A stretch of 64,000 nt of DNA from Fusobacterium ulcerans ATCC 49185 (lineage in GTDB: Bacteria; Fusobacteriota; Fusobacteriia; Fusobacteriales; Fusobacteriaceae). Positions 6,491-35,732 of this stretch are shown here, one piece after another. Each line of letters starts with the position of its first letter. Within the stretch, counting starts at the first letter, position 1. The position numbers and the translations under genes are program-made. The notes beneath the pieces are model-generated. The model saw only the letters and a list, made by a program, of their open reading frames with translations, was not told the origin of the DNA and made no database searches. The stretch is from NCBI RefSeq assembly GCF_900683735.1, contig NZ_LR215979.1:1240001-1304000 (forward strand), written 5' to 3'.

Positions 6491-7615
6491 ATGAAAGCTG
6501 AAGTTTTAAACTGTGAAAAAATTAAAGAAGGATATATAATAAAATTAAGTGATGGAAATGGTTCTTTTTACATAGATGGAAAAGGGGGACAATTAGGAGA
6601 TAGAGGAACAATAGGAGAGAGTATTGTTCTTGAAGTCAGAGATGGAAGTATAGTGATTGATAGAGAATTAACTCTGGGAGAATATGAGTATACTATTGAT
6701 GCAGAAAGAAGAAAAGATATAGCCTGTCAGCACACAGCTCAACATCTTTTTTCAGCTCTTGCATATAATGACTATCAATTAAATACTGTAGGATTTAGAA
6801 TGGCAGAAGAATATACTTCAGTAGATTTAGATTCTAATACAATATCAGAAGAAACTATAAAAGAACTGGAAAATAAGGCGAATGAAGTTATAAGAAAAGC
6901 TATAGAATTGAAAATATATACACTTAATCATGAAGAAGCTCTAAAAATAGAAGGACTGAGAAAGGCTATTAAAGATAAAGTGACTGGAGATGTAAGATTT
7001 GTAGAAATACCAGATATTGATTTAGGGGCTTGTGCTGGTTTTCATGTTGAAAATACAAAGGATATAAAACTATTTAAAATATTATCTCATGAAAAAATAA
7101 AAGGAAACTACACAAGATTCTTTTTTATAGCTGGAGATAGAGCTATAAAAGATTATGCTTTTAAAAATGAGTTATCAAAAGAATTGTGTCATATATTCAG
7201 CTGTAAAGATTATGAAATTCTCACAATGTTGAACAAAAGCTTGGAAGAAAAGAAAAAAACTGAAACAGAAATGAAAATGATTGCTTCAGAATTTGCTGAA
7301 CTTTTAGGAGAAAAACTGATGAGAGAGGCAGAGGAAATAAATGGATATAAATTTATTATATATACAGGAGATAAGGTAACAGTACAGTATCTGCCAAGAC
7401 ATATTACTCCAGAAGATTTTATATTGATAGCAGGAAATGAGGACAGTTATTCAATCATCTCAAATAGGATTAATTGTAAAGAGTTCCTAAAGGAACTAAC
7501 TTCATCTAATACCAATATTAAAGGTGGGGGAAATCAGATAAAGGGAAATTTCAAAGGAAAAATATCAAAAGAAGAGTTGAAAAAACAACTTGAAACTTTT
7601 CTTAATAAGTTGTAA
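6491..7615 (+). CDS. Alanyl-tRNA editing protein (AlaX-L type)
   Basis: Free-standing editing enzyme that hydrolyses Ser- or Gly-mischarged tRNA(Ala). It resembles the editing half of alanyl-tRNA synthetase. The four zinc ligands are visible: HTAQH (His81, His85) and CAGFH (Cys181, His185). An N-terminal beta-barrel-like region (residues 1-75) precedes them. Residues ~300-374 contain GGGNQIKGNFKGK, the DHHA1-like C-terminal signature, making it the long AlaX form. RBS GGAGGG is eight bases before the ATG. A separate promoter and the short gap to rlmN suggest loosely linked housekeeping genes. Confidence 0.88.
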   Translation: MKAEVLNCEKIKEGYIIKLSDGNGSFYIDGKGGQLGDRGTIGESIVLEVRDGSIVIDRELTLGEYEYTIDAERRKDIACQHTAQHLFSALAYNDYQLNTVGFRMAEEYTSVDLDSNTISEETIKELENKANEVIRKAIELKIYTLNHEEALKIEGLRKAIKDKVTGDVRFVEIPDIDLGACAGFHVENTKDIKLFKILSHEKIKGNYTRFFFIAGDRAIKDYAFKNELSKELCHIFSCKDYEILTMLNKSLEEKKKTETEMKMIASEFAELLGEKLMREAEEINGYKFIIYTGDKVTVQYLPRHITPEDFILIAGNEDSYSIISNRINCKEFLKELTSSNTNIKGGGNQIKGNFKGKISKEELKKQLETFLNKL

Positions 7616-26965: not shown

Positions 26966-29548
26966 ATGTTTGAGGAGGAACTTTTTTCAATAGAAAAATA
27001 TGTAAAAGATAAAAATAAAATTTTAGCTCATATATCAGATATAAAGAATCCAGAAACCTTATTAGAACATTCTGATTTAGTGATAAAGTATTTCAAAAAA
27101 ATCTATGAAGATAAAAACTTGGAAATAATTTTTGATAAATTTTCAGATAAATTTTTTGGGGAAAATAAGATCATAAAGAAATTTTGGAATGAAATGATAG
27201 TCAATACAATTTATATGCATGATATAGGTAAGTTGAATATAAATTTTCAAATTGATAAAATGAAAAATAAAATATTTGACAGAAAGCATTTGTATCAAAG
27301 TAAAAGGCATTCTAATTTATCTGCAAGAATATATATTGATTATTTTAGCAATAAAGTTTTTAAACTATATTCAGAAAAAAAATTAGATAATAAAACAGCA
27401 CTTAAATGTTTTATTTTTATCATATTGAATTCTTATATTATATCAAGGCATCATTCATCAACTAAAAGTTTAAGTGAAGATTTTTTTAATGAAATAATAA
27501 AAGATTATGAAGAATACAAAGAGTTATTTGAAGAAGTAAATAATTATTGCCCTAACTTAAATTTCTCAATAAAAGAAAGTAAAAACCTATTTAGGATATT
27601 GAAACAATTAAAAATTGGAGAAAAAGAATGGAATAATTATATAGAAACTTATGATTGGAAATCTGTTGATTTTTATATTTATACAAAACTACTGTATTCT
27701 TTATTGGTATCATCAGATTTTTATGCTACTAGTGAGTATAGTTCTGGAAAGCCAATAGAGAGTCTAAATTTGCTGACAAATATAGATGAGTATATATCCG
27801 TTTTTAATGCTACAGAAATATATAAAGGAATAAAATTACATCGAGAAACAGGAAAAATTTTTGCAAAGAATAATATAAATTATTATAGAAGTGAAATGTT
27901 TATAGAAGCAGAACAAAATTTAGAAAAAAATATAAAAGAAAATATTTTATTTTTAGAAGCTCCAACTGGGTCAGGAAAAACAATTACTTCTATTAATCTG
28001 GCATTGAAATTATTAGAAAAAAATAGAGAACTAAATAAAATATTTTATATATTTCCATTTAATACTTTAGTTGAGCAAACAAATGCATCTTTGAGAGAGA
28101 TATTTCAAGGTTCATCCTTAGAAGAAAATATTTCAGTAATAAACTCAATAACTCCTATAAAAGAAGTTGAGAAAGGGGAAGAATATAGAAAAGACCAAAT
28201 AGACTATGAAAGATCATTGCTAAACAGGCAATTTATACATTCACCAATAATTTTAACAACACATGTTCATTTTTTTGAAAACTTATTTGGTATTGATAGG
28301 GAGAGTAGTTTTGCTCTCCCACACTTAGCTAATAGTGTAGTGATAATGGATGAAATCCAAAGTTATAAAAATAAAATATGGAAAGAAATTATAATTTTCT
28401 TAAGAGAATATGCTGAAATTCTAAATATTAAAATAATAATTATGTCTGCAACTCTTCCTAACTTATCTCTTCTTTCAAATAGTAAGGTGCAAATTCCTTC
28501 ACTTATAACTAATAAAGAAAAATATTATAAAAATCCAATATTTAAAGATAGAGTATCTTTAGATTTTTCATTTTTAGAAAAAGAATATGAAAAGGAAGAG
28601 TTATTTGAACAGATAGAAAAAACTATTTTAGAGAAATATAAAAATAAAAAAGTAGTAGTGGAATTTATTAAAAAAGCTTCTGCTTTTGAGTTCTACAAGA
28701 AATTATTAGAAAGCAATGAAGTATCCAAAGAAGATATTTTCTTAATAACTGGTGATGATAATAAAGCTGAAAGAAAAAGAATAATAAAAGAAGCAAAAAA
28801 TAAAGAAAGAAAAAGTATGCTATTAATAGCAACTCAGGTAATTGAAGCAGGAGTGGATATAGATATGGATATTGGATTCAAAAATATATCTATATTAGAT
28901 GCTGATGAACAATTTTTAGGAAGAATTAATCGTTCTTGTAAGAAGAAAAATTGTAAAGTTTGTTTTTTTAAATTAGATGAAGGAAATTTGATTTATAAAA
29001 GTGATGTAAGAATAAGAAAAGAATTTACTCTTTTAAATAAAGAGATGAGAGAAGTTCTTTTGAATAAAGATTTTAATAAATACTATAATAAAGTTCTTGA
29101 GGTATTAGATGATCTTTCAAATAAAGAAGATGAAGAGAATATAGAAAATTTTAGAAAAAATAAAGTTGTTCAACTAAATTTTGAACAAATAAATAAAAGA
29201 TTGAAATTGATAACAGATGAGATGAAAACCAAGATGATATTTTTTTCTCGAAATGTAAATATAGAAGGAGAAGAGATAGAAGGAAATGAGGTATGGAAAG
29301 AATTTAAAGAAATACTTTCAAATAACAAAATAGGATATGCTGAAAGAAGAGTTAAACTATCTAAAGTAATGGAGAAAGTAGATCTGTTTTCATATAATAT
29401 TCCTGTGGAAATGATATATAGATTATCTTATCAAAGTAAAATTGGAGATAATATTCTATATATTGAAGATGGAGAAAAATATTTTGTAAATGGAAAATTT
29501 GACAGAAAGAAACTGCAATCAGATAAAGATTATGAAATGATATTGTAA
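26966..29548 (+). CDS. cas3: Cas3, helicase-nuclease of the type I-B system
   Basis: Destroys target DNA after Cascade binding. 860 residues: an N-terminal HD nuclease with HD in YMHDIGKLN (His85-Asp86) and SRHHSS near 156, then an SF2 helicase with APTGSGKT (Walker A, near 333), MDEIQ (Walker B, near 461), MSATLP, QVIEAGVDID and QFLGRINR (Arg finger). It starts seven bases after cas5. Every catalytic motif is intact, so interference should be functional. Confidence 0.95.
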   Translation: MFEEELFSIEKYVKDKNKILAHISDIKNPETLLEHSDLVIKYFKKIYEDKNLEIIFDKFSDKFFGENKIIKKFWNEMIVNTIYMHDIGKLNINFQIDKMKNKIFDRKHLYQSKRHSNLSARIYIDYFSNKVFKLYSEKKLDNKTALKCFIFIILNSYIISRHHSSTKSLSEDFFNEIIKDYEEYKELFEEVNNYCPNLNFSIKESKNLFRILKQLKIGEKEWNNYIETYDWKSVDFYIYTKLLYSLLVSSDFYATSEYSSGKPIESLNLLTNIDEYISVFNATEIYKGIKLHRETGKIFAKNNINYYRSEMFIEAEQNLEKNIKENILFLEAPTGSGKTITSINLALKLLEKNRELNKIFYIFPFNTLVEQTNASLREIFQGSSLEENISVINSITPIKEVEKGEEYRKDQIDYERSLLNRQFIHSPIILTTHVHFFENLFGIDRESSFALPHLANSVVIMDEIQSYKNKIWKEIIIFLREYAEILNIKIIIMSATLPNLSLLSNSKVQIPSLITNKEKYYKNPIFKDRVSLDFSFLEKEYEKEELFEQIEKTILEKYKNKKVVVEFIKKASAFEFYKKLLESNEVSKEDIFLITGDDNKAERKRIIKEAKNKERKSMLLIATQVIEAGVDIDMDIGFKNISILDADEQFLGRINRSCKKKNCKVCFFKLDEGNLIYKSDVRIRKEFTLLNKEMREVLLNKDFNKYYNKVLEVLDDLSNKEDEENIENFRKNKVVQLNFEQINKRLKLITDEMKTKMIFFSRNVNIEGEEIEGNEVWKEFKEILSNNKIGYAERRVKLSKVMEKVDLFSYNIPVEMIYRLSYQSKIGDNILYIEDGEKYFVNGKFDRKKLQSDKDYEMIL

Positions 29549-29561
29549 CTATGGAGGGTAT

Positions 29562-30044
29562 ATGCCTATAAATGGAACAATTGTAAATTATTTTATTCAT
29601 TGTAAAAGACAATGTTATATGCATTACAATAGAATAAATATGGAAGATGAAAGTGAATTAGTAAAAATCGGAAAAGCTATGCATGAAGAGAAAAAGACTG
29701 ATGAAATAACTGTAGAAAATATCAAAGTAGATAAAATAAAGAAAGATTATTTAATAGAGATAAAAAAATCAGATGCAGATATTGAAGTAGCAAAAATGCA
29801 GGTACTTTATTATCTCTTGAAATTAAAAGAAAAAGGAATAGATAAAAAAGGAAAAATAGAAGTAATAGAAAAAAATAAATCTTCGAAAAAAAGCTATGAG
29901 ATTGAACTTACTGCTGAAAATGAGGCATATATCAAGAATATAATAGAGGAAATAGAAAAATTAGTTGAAAGAGATGAATTGCCACCAATTGAAAAAAATA
30001 ATAAATGTAAAAAATGTGCATATTATTCATATTGCTATATTTAA
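29562..30044 (+). CDS. cas4: Cas4, PD-(D/E)XK nuclease for spacer processing
   Basis: Trims prespacers with Cas1-Cas2 and helps set PAM. 160 residues. Cys in HCKRQC near residue 14-18 and the C-terminal trio CKKCAYYSYC can hold a 4Fe-4S cluster. Nuclease core IEIKKSD (ExK) near 63, QxxxY-like QVLYYLLK near 81. RBS TGGAGGG. Confidence 0.9.
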   Translation: MPINGTIVNYFIHCKRQCYMHYNRINMEDESELVKIGKAMHEEKKTDEITVENIKVDKIKKDYLIEIKKSDADIEVAKMQVLYYLLKLKEKGIDKKGKIEVIEKNKSSKKSYEIELTAENEAYIKNIIEEIEKLVERDELPPIEKNNKCKKCAYYSYCYI

Positions 30045-30053
30045 GGAGTGTAT

Positions 30054-31055
30054 ATGGGAGCTGAAACAAAATATATTTTGAGTAAAGGTATTCTTGATAG
30101 AAAAGACAATTCTCTATGTTTTAAAAATGAAAATAAAACAACATATATTCCTATAGAAGGAGTTAAAGAAATATTTGCATTAGATGAAATTTCTGTGAAT
30201 ACAAAGCTTTTTGATTTTTTAGCTAAACATGGTATTACACTACATTTTTTTAATCACTATGAGGGATACTCAGGAACATTTTATCCAAGAGAAAAATATG
30301 TCAGTGGAAAGTTAGTAATAAAACAGGTAGAGGCTCATAAAAATCATAAAGAAGTTATAGCAAAAAGTATTGTAAAAGGAATTGGAAAAAATATTTATGA
30401 AGTACTTTATCACTATTATCGTCATGAAAAAAAAGAGCTAAAAGAATATTTAGAGTGGCTTTCTAATGATGTAGAAAGAAGATTGAGTGCGAGTAATGAT
30501 ATAAATGAGATAATGGCAGTGGAAGGAGAGATTTGGGCAAAATTTTATGATAGTTTTAAAATCTTTTTAAGAGAGGATTTTATTATAAATAAAAGAGTCA
30601 AAAGACCACCTGATAATCCGATAAACGCTCTGATATCTTTTGGAAATTCAATTTTATACACTAAAACTATTGGGCAGATTTATCAAACACATTTAGAGCA
30701 AACAATAAGTTTTTTACATTCTCCATCTGAAAGAAGATTTTCACTATCTTTAGATTTATCAGAAGTTTTTAAACCAATTATTGTATTTAGAACAATTTTT
30801 GAATGTGTAAATAACAGAAAATTAAATGTAGAAAAACATTTTGAGAAAAACTTAAATTACTGTATTCTAAATGAAACTGGCAAAAAAATATTTTTAAGTG
30901 CTTTAGAAGACAGAATGAATGAAACTTTTGAACATCCTATTTTGAAAAGAAAAGTTAGTTATATAACTGCTGTGAAATATGACGCATATAAATTAATAAA
31001 ATTTTTATTGGAAAATAAAGAATTCGTTCCATTTTATATAAAGGAAAAGATGTAG
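30054..31055 (+). CDS. cas1: Cas1, CRISPR integrase
   Basis: Inserts new spacers at the leader end. 333 residues from ATG 30054, which has AAGGAG at five-base spacing; an upstream GTG (30048) overlaps the RBS and is unlikely. Metal ligands: GEIW (Glu159), LHSPSE (His222), LDLSE (Asp234). All are present. Confidence 0.95.
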   Translation: MGAETKYILSKGILDRKDNSLCFKNENKTTYIPIEGVKEIFALDEISVNTKLFDFLAKHGITLHFFNHYEGYSGTFYPREKYVSGKLVIKQVEAHKNHKEVIAKSIVKGIGKNIYEVLYHYYRHEKKELKEYLEWLSNDVERRLSASNDINEIMAVEGEIWAKFYDSFKIFLREDFIINKRVKRPPDNPINALISFGNSILYTKTIGQIYQTHLEQTISFLHSPSERRFSLSLDLSEVFKPIIVFRTIFECVNNRKLNVEKHFEKNLNYCILNETGKKIFLSALEDRMNETFEHPILKRKVSYITAVKYDAYKLIKFLLENKEFVPFYIKEKM

Positions 31056-31340
<285 letters not shown>

Positions 31341-31510
31341 TTTCCAAGTCTAAAAACTAGCAATTTTATTAAAGAGTTATTTTAAAAGAGATTGAAAAGA
31401 TAAAAATTTAAAGTATAAAAAATTGTATAGCTTGGAAAAAAAGATAAAAAACCTTTTTAAATTCAATAATAGAAAAGATCATGAATAGTATGAATTCTTT
31501 TTTCATGAGG
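31341..31510 (+). promoter_or_regulatory. CRISPR leader of the main array
   Basis: TTTCCAAG (31341-31348) and CTTGGAAA (31431-31438) with 82 bp between, then 72 bp ending TTTCATGAGG before repeat 1. Geometry equals that of the mini-array leader, although most of the sequence between has diverged. Confidence 0.85.
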
Positions 31511-32119
31511 GTAGAATATTAACTCAGAAGTCTTTAAATAGATTTAACAAAAAATTCTTTAAATATAAATTTTAGTAGAATATTAACTCAGAAGTCTTTA
31601 AATGTTCTTTTTTTTTATAAAAATTTGCTCTTGACAAGTAGAATATTAACTCAGAAGTCTTTAAATAATGATTCAATTATTAAACGGAGATGCTGTTGAA
31701 GAGTAGAATATTAACTCAGAAGTCTTTAAATTGAGTAATAGTCGTTGCTGCCTGATTGTGTGCACTTGTAGAATATTAACTCAGAAGTCTTTAAATATGA
31801 CCTTAGTCCATTAAAAGCTACCATTTTAACTGTAGAATATTAACTCAGAAGTCTTTAAATCAGATTTTTTAATAGGTCCTTTTTCCACTAGTACAGGTAG
31901 AATATTAACTCAGAAGTCTTTAAATATTGTTAAATTATCACCTACTATTATTCTTCCTAATGTAGAATATTAACTCAGAAGTCTTTAAATTACAGGAAGC
32001 TTAGTTTTATGCAAAGTAAGCAATTGTAGAATATTAACTCAGAAGTCTTTAAATTTTTTATCAACACCTAGAGAAGCTATGTATTTTAAAGTAGAATATT
32101 AACTCAGAAGTCTTTAAAT
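31511..32119 (+). CRISPR. Main CRISPR array, 10 identical 29-base repeats, 9 spacers
   Basis: Repeat starts are 31511, 31575, 31638, 31703, 31768, 31832, 31897, 31962, 32026 and 32091; spacers are 34-36 bases. The repeat begins GTAGAATATTAACT and ends CTTTAAAT, like clostridial type I-B repeats that end TGTAAAT. Orientation follows from the leader next to cas2 and from the cas operon direction. All ten repeats are identical, including the last, so the trailer end has not decayed. Confidence 0.98.
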
Positions 32120-32141
32120 ATTCATTAGATTAAATATAAAA

Positions 32142-32168
32142 AACAGGCTAAGAATTTTTTAGCCTGTT
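32142..32168. terminator. Bidirectional terminator between CRISPR array and Mu-like gene
   Basis: AACAGGCTAA (32142-32151) pairs perfectly with TTAGCCTGTT (32159-32168). The second arm contains the stop codon of the minus-strand gene. It likely stops both the array transcript and the gene from the other side. Confidence 0.75.
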
Positions 32169-33277
32169 GCAATATTAGCAGTTCCTAAAAATTGATTTTT
32201 AAAGAATAAGTATAAGATATCAGTATCCAAAGGATTGTATTTAACAATAACTTTCTTTCCTTCCAGAGAGGTTAAAAAATTATTAGTGTAAATAAAATTA
32301 TTAAATCTTAAAGAAGATTTATTTATTTTTCTGCTGGCTTCCTGAAGAAAGATATCAAATTCACGAACATATGGAACATCCTGTATCATTTCATATTTAA
32401 GTAAAAAATCATATTTTTCATTATCCAAATAGATATATGAATCAAGAAAGTTTTTTAAATTTTGATATGAAAGAATTTTATTATTTTGATAATAAAATTT
32501 CTCTATATCTTCCTCAAGAAAAGAGATAAATTTTTTAATTTCCTCATTTTCAGTAAAATATTCAGATATTTTTATAGAAGTATTATCATAGATTTCCTTC
32601 AATATTTTTTTGTTATTTATATTTTCAGAAGAAACTAAAATTTCTTGAGGCTTTACAGATTTTCCTGATTTATATGAAACTTTAAGTATACTCTCTCTGA
32701 TAAAACTCAAAAGAGTATATATACTTGAAGTATTATAGTTCAAAGCATGATTTATAGGTTTTAAAGTAGCAGTATCAATAGAGATTAACAACTGAGGAAC
32801 TATTTTATGCTCATTTTCTTCTTCAGATACAAGTATGTATAAAGGGATTTCAAGAATAAGATAAACTTGATTTTCCTTTTTTATTTTTTTCATATGGAAA
32901 TTTGAGGATTTATTAAAAAAACCATCTAAATTACTGACTATTCTATAAAAAGTAGGATAGCTTATATTATATTTGTTTGAAAGTTTTTCTTTGCAGAAAG
33001 AATAAAGTTTTGAAATTTTGGTTTCCTTACTTTCACGGCAAATTTGTTCAATATATTCTACACCATCTTCATCAATAGCTCTATATGAATCCTTATCATT
33101 TCTCTGTTTTTTATCAAGTCCCAATATCCCATTTTTTTTGTAAGCATTTACCCATCTCTTCAATGTAGCGTATGAAATACCAGTTTCTTCTTCTATTTCT
33201 TTTAATTTTTTTTCTTTTCTTAAAAAAGGCTCAATTATTTTGAAACGTTGCAATTGTAATTCTTTTTCTGTTTCCAT
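32159..33277 (-). CDS. MuA/TnsB-like HTH and integrase-fold protein with degraded catalytic site
   Basis: 372 residues from ATG 33277 (AGGAGA in front; a longer frame reaches 33349 but lacks an RBS). Residues ~1-60 are a helix-turn-helix (KLKEIEEETGISYATLKRWVNAYKK), and ~85-130 a second winged helix. The core follows Mu/TnsB transposases: ISIDTATLKP (first Asp of the triad kept), then VSSENINN where DNG(x)EF is expected (second Asp lost). The end, YNPLDTDILYLFFKNQFLGTA, is the Mu-transposase C-terminal beta-barrel. No transposon ends, AAA+ partner or cargo are near. It is divergent from the ptsG-like gene, so a domesticated DNA-binding regulator is the better guess. Confidence 0.75.
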   Translation of the reverse strand: METEKELQLQRFKIIEPFLRKEKKLKEIEEETGISYATLKRWVNAYKKNGILGLDKKQRNDKDSYRAIDEDGVEYIEQICRESKETKISKLYSFCKEKLSNKYNISYPTFYRIVSNLDGFFNKSSNFHMKKIKKENQVYLILEIPLYILVSEEENEHKIVPQLLISIDTATLKPINHALNYNTSSIYTLLSFIRESILKVSYKSGKSVKPQEILVSSENINNKKILKEIYDNTSIKISEYFTENEEIKKFISFLEEDIEKFYYQNNKILSYQNLKNFLDSYIYLDNEKYDFLLKYEMIQDVPYVREFDIFLQEASRKINKSSLRFNNFIYTNNFLTSLEGKKVIVKYNPLDTDILYLFFKNQFLGTANIATG

Positions 33278-33320
33278 TTGTTTTCTCCTAAAATATGAAA
33301 TTAAATATTTACTTATATAG

Positions 33321-33349
33321 ATAATACTATATTTAGGAAAAAAAAGCAA
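33321..33349 (-). promoter_or_regulatory. Promoter of the Mu-like gene
   Basis: On the minus strand TTGCTT (33349-33344), 17 bp, TATTAT (33326-33321), about 44 bases before the start codon. Confidence 0.6.
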
Positions 33350-33372
33350 ATCATTCTATTATGAATAGTTTA

Positions 33373-33425
33373 TTTTGAAAAAAGCTCATTTTATTTGAAA
33401 AAAACTTGACATTTTTTTGAAAAAA
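33373..33425 (+). promoter_or_regulatory. Three tandem TTTGAAAAAA sites (candidate operator)
   Basis: TTTGAAAAAA occurs at 33374-33383, 33394-33403 and 33416-33425; the G residues are 20 and 22 bp apart, two helical turns. The last site lies between the -35 and -10 of the ptsG-like promoter. The sites could bind the divergent Mu-like protein, or be phased A-tracts that bend DNA. Confidence 0.5.
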
Positions 33426-33434
33426 TATTATTAT
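33406..33434 (+). promoter_or_regulatory. Promoter of the ptsG-like gene
   Basis: TTGACA (33406-33411), 17 bp, TATTAT (33429-33434), consensus -35. About 43 bases of leader precede the start codon, with AGGAGG as RBS. Confidence 0.75.
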
Positions 33435-33483
33435 TTCAATTACAGAGAATAAATAAAAAAGGGTAGAAGAAACAGGAGGAGAA

Positions 33484-34980
33484 ATGAAGATTTTTGCAGA
33501 AGTACAAAAAATTGGAAAAGCATTGATGACACCAGTTGCTATATTGCCAGCTGCTGGACTATTCCTTGCTTTTGGAAACAAATTGCAATTTACACTGATG
33601 GAACAAGCAGGACAGGTAATATTCAGCAACCTTCCATTACTATTTGCCATAGGAGCAGCTATTGGTCTCGTAGGAGGAGATGGAGTAGCAGCCTTATCAG
33701 CAGTAGTAGCAATACTTATCATGAATACTACAATGGGAATTGTATCAGGAGCAGCTGAAGGAATAGCAGCAGGCGATATGTCATATGCAATGGTATTAGG
33801 AATACCTACACTTCAGACTGGAGTTTTTGGTGGATTGATAGCAGGTATAATAGCTGCAGTATGTTACAAAAAATTTTATAAAACTGAACTTCCAGCATTT
33901 CTGGGATTTTTTGCAGGTAAAAGACTAGTACCTATAGTGACAGCAGTGGCAGCTTTTATAATTGGATTAGCAATGCCTGTTATATGGCAGCCTGTTCAAG
34001 TCGGATTAGCAAAATTATCATATCTGGCTAATGAAACAAATACAAATATATCTACTTTTATATTTGGAGTAATAGAAAGATCTCTTATTCCATTTGGGTT
34101 ACATCATATATTCTATGCACCTTTCTGGTATCAATTTGGAGAATATACAAATGCAGCAGGACAAGTTGTCAATGGAGATCAGGCAATATGGTTTGCTATG
34201 CTTAAAGATGGAGTTGTTAATTTCTCTAGTGATACTTATCAAGGAGCAGGGAAATTCCTTACTGGAAAATTTGTATTTATGATGTTTGGATTGCCAGCAG
34301 CAGCTTTAGCAATGTATCAGGAAGCTAAACCAGCTAATAAGAAACTAGTAGGAGGAATATTGTTTTCTGCAGCCCTTACTTCATTTCTTACAGGAATAAC
34401 AGAACCATTAGAATTTTCATTCTTATTTGTGGCTCCTATTCTTTATGGAATTCATTGTATATTTGCAGGACTTTCATTTATGCTTATGAACATGCTTAAT
34501 GTAAGAATAGGAATGACATTTTCTGGAGGACTTATTGACTATATCGCTTTTGGAGTTCTTCCAGGAACAAGTGGATTTCAAAATAATTGGTATTTAGTAA
34601 TAGTAGTAGGATTATGTCTGTCAGTAGTTTACTATTTTGGGTTTAGATTTGCTATTAGAAAATTTAACTTAATGACTCCTGGCAGAGAAGAAACAATTGT
34701 AGAAACTTCTTCAGCATCTTCTGGTTCTCAAGTGAAGTCAGATGAACTTGCAGTAGGAGTTTTAGAAGCATTAGGTGGAAAAGATAACCTTGTATCTCTT
34801 GATTCTTGTATAACGAGATTGAGAGTAGAAGTTAAAGATACAAAAATAGTAAGTGATCAAGAATTAAAAAAACTAGGAGCTTCTGGAGTATTGAAAGTAG
34901 GAACTAATGGAGTTCAAGCTATTTTTGGTTCAAAAGCACAATTTATATGCAATGATTTGAAAAAAATGACTGGAATTTAG
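33484..34980 (+). CDS. ptsG: PTS glucose-type EIICB permease
   Basis: Sugar uptake with phosphorylation at the membrane. 498 residues: EIIC with ~10 membrane segments ([17 protein letters not shown] near 14; [14 protein letters not shown] near 308), then a linker and EIIB ([12 protein letters not shown], phospho-Cys442). No EIIA domain is attached, so a separate glucose-type EIIA is needed. The family includes glucose, maltose and N-acetylglucosamine permeases; glucose type is favoured, but the sugar is not certain. Single gene, divergent from the Mu-like protein. Confidence 0.9.
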
Positions 34981-35294
34981 GAAAAAAGGAAAATGGGTTT
35001 GTTCCATTAAGATAAAAAAGAGAGAAACTTTTAAGCAAAGATATAATTTAGAATTTTAAAGTAAAGAGATTTGTCATTAATTTTGTTTTTAAAATATAAA
35101 AAAGATAAGGATTACAGCAGTTCCAATGTTGTGTTTTAATAATTAGGGCAGTTAAAATATTAACTGTCCCAATTAATGAAAACTTGTTTTGCTCAAATAT
35201 ATTTTTATATTTTATTCATTTCATTAATTATATAAATTTCTCTAATTTCTAAAATAAAATTTATTTTGCTTTTTAAATTTCTCTCTTTTATTTA
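34981..35294. other. Non-coding region between converging ptsG-like and threonine genes
   Basis: No gene seen. One hairpin, around AATTAGGGCAGTTAA (35141-35155) and TTAACTGTCCCAATT (35160-35174), imperfect (offset bulges), with little T run; it probably stops transcription from both sides. Confidence 0.45.
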
Positions 35295-35732
35295 TTATTC
35301 CAATGAAAGAAGCTTTGTTGAACTTACATAGTTTATCTGCTCTATTCCTATAATGATATCTTCAATAGGGATAGTTATATCTGAAATATCTAAGGATATT
35401 ACTACAGAAGCTACATTATTTATAGGGATATTCTGATTTATCGTAATTATATTTCCATTCACAAATGATAGATAATTAAGAACTTCAGACAAAACTCCTT
35501 TTTTATGCTCAAGCATCATAGAAACCAGAGCTTTTCTTCCTATACTGTTGTCAGAAGGGAGAAAGACATAATCTTTGTATTTATAGTAAGTGCTTCTGCT
35601 GATTCCAACAATTTTTGCAGCATCACTTATTCCTTTTACTTTACCTTCAGTTAAAAGATTTCTAGCTTCAACTACTTTTTCAAAATAATCTGGAAGTATT
35701 TTTTTATTGACAATAAGGTATTTTTCTTTCAT
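35295..35732 (-). CDS. ACT-domain protein with N-terminal HTH (PheB / UPF0735 type)
   Basis: 145 residues. Residues ~20-60 form a helix-turn-helix (VKGISDAAKIVGISRSTYYKYKDYV); residues ~70-140 form an ACT domain (VSMMLEHKKGVLSEVLNYLSFVNGNIITINQNIPI). The UPF0735 family is often found beside hom-thrC-thrB. It begins nine bases after thrB in the same transcript. An amino-acid sensing regulator of the threonine genes is a natural guess; chorismate-mutase activity, sometimes given to PheB, is not supported here. Confidence 0.85.
   Translation of the reverse strand: MKEKYLIVNKKILPDYFEKVVEARNLLTEGKVKGISDAAKIVGISRSTYYKYKDYVFLPSDNSIGRKALVSMMLEHKKGVLSEVLNYLSFVNGNIITINQNIPINNVASVVISLDISDITIPIEDIIIGIEQINYVSSTKLLSLE

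Follow-up and report, generated by a model that had tools for sequence, protein, structure and literature searches.

The window analysed here is a 64,000-nucleotide stretch of the Fusobacterium ulcerans ATCC 49185 genome (contig NZ_LR215979.1, positions 1,240,001 to 1,304,000), and coordinates given without a genome label are window positions. The gene under study lies on the minus strand and is a real open reading frame (ORF), with an ATG at 33277, an AGGAG just 5' of it and a stop codon at 32159-32161; without the stop codon, its coding part spans 32162-33277 and encodes 372 amino acids. The first-pass annotation of this DNA had described the product as a domesticated MuA/TnsB-like protein with two helix-turn-helix (HTH) regions, a DDE (Asp-Asp-Glu)-like core and the Mu C-terminal barrel, encoded divergently from a phosphotransferase system (PTS) gene. 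Both the architecture and the layout were borne out by our analysis. Pfam assigned HTH_28 and Mu-transpos_C (residues 309-365, E 2.1e-10), each above its cut-off, alignment to intact transposases covered the remaining regions, and the divergent partner is ptsG, the gene for the glucose-specific EIIBC (Table 1).

The protein is the sole Mu transposase C-terminal (Mu_C) protein and the sole copy of its family in the 3.84-Mb genome. ROK, PRD and RNA-binding domains were not detected in it with Pfam, and it did not match the TnpB family, the families found being HTH and Mu_C. NCBI labels its homologues only as 'helix-turn-helix domain-containing protein'.

Table 1. Features of the regulator-ptsG locus (window positions)
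Feature	Position	Strand	Basis
Dead Tn552/TnsB/MuA-type transposase homologue, proposed PTS transcription regulator, 372 aa	32159..33277, including stop codon	-	ORF, Pfam, hhalign
First HTH domain (HTH1), residues 10-62, most conserved part of the family	33092..33250	-	HTH_28 E 6.5e-11; 21/53 columns at least 90% conserved
Second HTH region, residues 68-118	32924..33076	-	HTH_32, sub-threshold in Pfam
Degenerate RNase H-like (DDE) core (residues 135-265), with D1, D2 and E changed to L, S and K	32483..32875	-	Alignment to intact transposases
Mu-transpos_C beta-barrel, residues 305-368, without the 67-72 aa tail of intact transposases	32174..32365	-	Pfam, alignment
O2, second motif copy in the regulator coding sequence (RFKIIEPFL codons), oriented like O1 and 155 bp from it	33222..33249	+	Motif scans, codon constraint
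O1, proposed operator directly 5' of the ptsG -35 (AAAAAAGCTCATTTTATTTGAAAAAAAC region)	33377..33404	+	Motif scans
ptsG promoter, TTGACA-17-TATTAT	33406..33434	+	11/12 consensus matches
ptsG, glucose-specific PTS EIIBC, proposed target	33484..34980	+	TIGR02002, 667.6 bits against a cut-off of 591.8

When the regulator family was compared with intact Tn552-type transposases, the two aligned end to end over 365 columns (hhalign probability 99.9, E 1.6e-33). This full-length homology, together with the order HTH-HTH-RNase H core-Mu_C barrel, places the family in the Tn552/TnsB/MuA superfamily. A tblastn search of plasmids gave full-length matches of 21-24% to Tn552-type transposases, which adjoin an AAA ATPase and usually also resolvases, and in addition two Fusobacteriota homologues. 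The sole match of the family profile in the PDB was TnsB of a CAST (CRISPR-associated transposon; CRISPR, clustered regularly interspaced short palindromic repeats), through the HTH and the barrel (E 1.8e-14). The earlier MuA/TnsB-like assignment thus holds for the superfamily and not for MuA as the closest relative, the nearest intact relatives being Tn552-type transposases. No relatives were found in viral contigs with either the single protein or the alignment as query, and a search of a phage collection gave one weak partial match.

The first-pass annotation had noted that the second catalytic Asp position reads VSSENINN. Alignment to the intact enzymes identifies this stretch as the D2 site, and the loss of the triad is wider, since the first Asp (D1) and the Glu (E) are gone too. 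In the intact enzymes D1, D2 and E lie in the motifs QADHT, YTDHG and KIERFF; the corresponding residues of the window protein are L, S and K. No complete triad occurs among 46 relatives, of which 24 have Asp at D2, 8 have Glu at E and none has Asp at D1. The Asp of 'SID' (D168), which is conserved in the family, corresponds in the alignment to the DDYS motif, which is not catalytic. Conservation at 90% or above is found in 21 of the 53 columns of HTH1 versus 2 of 131 columns of the core, which is the opposite of the pattern in four intact transposases, where 74 of the 131 core columns are identical.

Features other than the triad have been lost as well. The C-terminal tail region of TnsB and MuA contacts the AAA+ partner, and nearly all ptsG-linked members of the family lack the tail of 67-72 residues found in the intact transposases. 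Between 20 and 49 tail residues are retained by the ptsHI-linked members and by two tail-bearing ptsG-linked ones, and the tail-bearing members branch nearest the intact transposases in the tree. As the first-pass annotation had stated, neither an AAA+ partner nor transposon ends were seen. No recurrent ORF for such a partner (TnsC/MuB/TniB) was found in the neighbourhoods of 47 regulator loci, whereas the intact relatives have one, and the region 31300-35300 contains only A/T-rich, chance-like inverted repeats with no convincing terminal inverted repeats (TIRs) among them. When Tn552-type loci were scanned for the GGCTCA motif described below, only scattered partial matches and no common end site were obtained. 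Judged from these alignments and searches, the regulator is a descendant of the Tn552/TnsB/MuA superfamily but lacks every defining feature of a functional transposase that was examined (triad, partner and ends). As a separate observation, genome G028 contains another Mu_C protein about 24 kb from the regulator (G028:C1:136399-136578), a 621-aa open frame that is possibly the intact transposase of an active element.

The regulator gene was found in 44 of 61 Fusobacteriaceae genomes and 10 of 14 genera, usually as a single copy. In the rest of the phylum it was found only in Haliovirga, on a plasmid, and in none of the 33 genomes of the other large family. Its ratio of nonsynonymous to synonymous substitution rates (dN/dS) is 0.04-0.13, similar to that of ptsG and a sign of strong purifying selection, indicating a gene that is being maintained rather than an element in decay. 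In two assemblies a contig break falls inside the regulator gene (G004:C64/C50 and G011:C68/C162), at about the same codon in both (near 165).

Synteny with ptsG across fusobacteria, proposed earlier as a check, was clear. The divergent partner is ptsG at 43 of 47 loci, ptsHI at three (L072, L075 and L076) and a decayed ptsG at one (L079), and the flanks of the loci differ among genera while this divergent regulator-PTS pair persists. The distances among regulators and among their ptsG partners are correlated (Mantel r 0.68, against a null maximum of 0.21), and duplicates of the two genes occur as pairs (G005 and G044). The decayed locus (L079; G005:C4) is a third regulator-ptsG pair in its genome in which both genes are broken by stops or frameshifts, and the pair therefore seems to decay together. 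The Haliovirga homologue faces ptsH-ptsI-crr-EIIBC; at this locus (L178), on the 297-kb plasmid pHIC of Haliovirga abyssi, the genes for HPr, EI, EIIA and EIIBC all face the homologue. Genomes without the regulator retain ptsG.

The regulator-ptsG intergenic regions have in common an asymmetric motif of about 28 bp, AAAAAAGGCTCATTTTTTTTGAWAAAAA. The distance from its GGCTCA to the -35 element of ptsG (TTGAC) is 22-25 bp in 43 of 44 scored loci. When 12 genomes of the genus were scanned with up to two mismatches, most contained two sites and one contained three, nearly all at the regulator locus, where one copy lies at the promoter and the other in the regulator coding sequence, while reversed-pattern controls gave none or one per genome. 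Nearly all exact matches in a family-wide scan likewise adjoin the regulator, and a strong motif lies 5' of the ptsH-ptsI-crr-EIIBC genes beside the Haliovirga homologue. The motif was not found 5' of four close ptsG copies that have no regulator (G036, G037, G048 and the second copy in G002), indicating that it goes with the regulator rather than with ptsG. A full-pattern operator with a -35 was also observed at L169 (G045:C101, about 6930-6963, minus strand), 5' of a sugar-binding-protein/ABC transporter operon that resembles mgl and is divergent from a possible ROK-type regulator gene, and the regulon may have expanded in this lineage.

The second copy of the motif, O2, falls within regulator codons 10-20. 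At Glu16 the codon is GAG in 28 of 34 sequences compared with a background of 27.5%, and among 352 windows compared with codon shuffles this region shows the strongest synonymous constraint (z 9.9). For the promoter of the regulator itself, only chance-level consensus matches were found on the minus strand.

Based on these observations, we suggest that a domesticated, catalytically dead transposase of the Tn552/TnsB/MuA type very probably serves as a local regulator that binds DNA and controls the transcription of PTS genes. The comparative data strongly support the earlier proposal that an integrase-fold protein has been reused in this way, because the PTS linkage is fixed across ten or more genera, the triad is lost in every member and conservation has shifted to the HTHs, and because the motif keeps a constant spacing to the ptsG promoter, is absent without the regulator and has a second site in the regulator gene. 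Both features expected of a regulator that we examined were present, namely conserved DNA-binding domains under selection and an operator-like motif co-occurring at the target promoter. In the proposed mechanism, the two HTHs would recognise O1 and O2 in the way that those of transposases recognise their end sites of about 22 bp; binding to O1 would alter ptsG transcription, and binding to O2 would feed back on the regulator gene, which is probably autoregulated. At O1 the protein would abut the -35 and cover the UP-element position, from where it could hinder polymerase or else recruit it. The obvious candidate for the signal is PTS flux.

Several points weigh against this interpretation. No effector domain was identified in the protein, and its physical contact with the motif is one that we infer from linkage and co-occurrence. 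An AlphaFold2 model built from a two-sequence alignment (the window protein and its F. mortiferum homologue) was too poor for a fold search (predicted local distance difference test score 46.6, predicted TM-score 0.27); the order of strands and helices in this low-confidence model fits HTH-HTH-RNase H-barrel, which we do not count as evidence. One locus has no clear motif (L076) and two have poor ones (L064 and L069), and a perfect motif occurs at G059:C255:11328-11350 in an incomplete genome in which no regulator was found, either because the gene is absent from the assembly or because the match arose by chance. Finally, O2 is strong in the genus of the window and in several relatives, but in several other genera the site is weak or missing, indicating that O2 is not essential to the system.

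The direction of the regulation was also considered. Repression or modulation is slightly favoured over activation, because the ptsG promoter is near consensus, O1 lies at the UP-element position and an arrangement with two operators is typical of repressors. An activator of the class I/II-like kind, contacting RNA polymerase from O1 and needed for glucose uptake, would account for O1 ending just 5' of the -35 and for the fixed GGCTCA distance, a position shared by many activators; we regard it as somewhat the less likely case, given a promoter that hardly departs from consensus and genomes that keep ptsG without the regulator. It is also conceivable, though rather unlikely, that the regulator, when bound to both O1 and O2, brings the two sites together in a transpososome-like loop and thereby represses its own promoter, and perhaps ptsG too, in the manner of AraC or GalR. 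The two near-identical sites lie 130-161 bp apart in the same orientation across loci, related transposases are generally known to pair end sites, and the spacings cluster in phase at 10.5 bp with a nominal p of 0.01. However, this p value is not corrected for descent although the spacings are inherited, the phase fits better at 11.5 than at 10.5 bp, and several genera with O1 have a weak O2 or none. The bolder idea that a dead transpososome serves as a switch, with ancestral end-pairing kept, O1 and O2 bridged and the regulator's own expression coupled to PTS control, seems to us doubtful. Our estimates for repression, activation and looping are not mutually exclusive, and all three are versions of the regulator interpretation.

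Two further explanations lie outside that interpretation. The motif might belong to another factor, such as a global regulator, or be an UP element, with the transposase-like protein a passenger of unrelated function. Half of the motif indeed consists of A/T tracts at the UP-element position, but its GGCTCA core is not UP-like, it recurs under synonymous constraint in the regulator coding sequence, it is nearly unique in the genome where a global factor would have many sites, and it does not accompany ptsG copies where the regulator is lacking; we consider this explanation improbable. Still harder to sustain is the idea of a transposon remnant, either decaying or still mobile, whose position beside ptsG is a coincidence. 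Membership in a transposase family and the duplication of the gene pair in a few genomes would fit it, but the strong purifying selection, the loss of the triad everywhere, the lack of an AAA+ partner or TIRs and the same PTS partner across genera make it extremely improbable.

The 3' end of the regulator gene faces a CRISPR-Cas locus. An inverted repeat at 32142-32169 (AACAGGCTAA/TTAGCCTGTT) overlaps the regulator stop codon; with the T-rich stretch that comes after it on the minus strand, it is likely a terminator between the regulator and the CRISPR array. The array (31514-32119, repeat GTAGAATATTAACTCAGAAGTCTTTAAAT) ends about 20-40 bp from the 3' end of the regulator, and a type I-B CRISPR-Cas operon with cas3, cas4, cas1b and cas2 occupies 26966-31340. 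In genome G027 cas1 is split, and in G026 cas3 is.

The whole path of domestication appears to be visible in this family, from intact relatives with AAA+ partners through tail-bearing, mostly ptsHI-linked members to trimmed, ptsG-linked members with a putative operator. It offers a candidate glucose-uptake regulator for Fusobacteria together with a short candidate site, and suggests that proteins labelled 'Mu transposase C-terminal' or 'helix-turn-helix domain-containing protein' can be conserved host regulators. The first-pass annotation had noted that such a role is not commonly described for this fold; in our literature search, whose coverage left out most subscription journals, we found neither a published description of this regulator family nor a report that bacteria have domesticated a MuA/TnsB-type DDE transposase as a transcription regulator dedicated to metabolism.

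Tn552-type transposases, annotated as Mu transposase C-terminal domain proteins (for example on S. aureus pSALNT16, Paenibacillus pPC01 and a Vagococcus plasmid), have the same full-length domain order as the regulator. They keep the DDE triad, the tail and an adjacent ATPase and are associated with resolvases, whereas the regulator family has lost the triad and the ATPase, in most members also the tail, and is linked to the PTS. TnsB of Tn7-like elements and CASTs, the latter being the only solved structure matched, and MuA bind end sites of about 22 bp through a bipartite HTH arrangement; the regulator differs from them in lacking catalytic residues, transposon ends and a TnsC/MuB partner. 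Mlc and the PRD-type GlcT/LicT are dedicated local regulators of ptsG and PTS genes, but the window protein has an unrelated fold and none of their domains was detected in it. The eukaryotic FHY3/FAR1 and DAYSLEEPER are likewise DNA transposases reused as regulators (PMC13306707, PMC3499209); they belong to different superfamilies (MULE and hAT) and another domain of hosts, whereas the window regulator would have a single dedicated metabolic target. By analogy, the nearest conceptual parallel is the bacterial TldR, a nuclease-dead TnpB used as a repressor, in which an enzyme encoded by a transposon has likewise lost its activity, become coupled to a host gene and taken on the role of a transcription factor (PMC13418256). 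TldR is RNA-guided and of TnpB/RuvC lineage, whereas the protein described here is a DDE transposase with HTHs and a fixed candidate DNA motif, conserved across a bacterial family.
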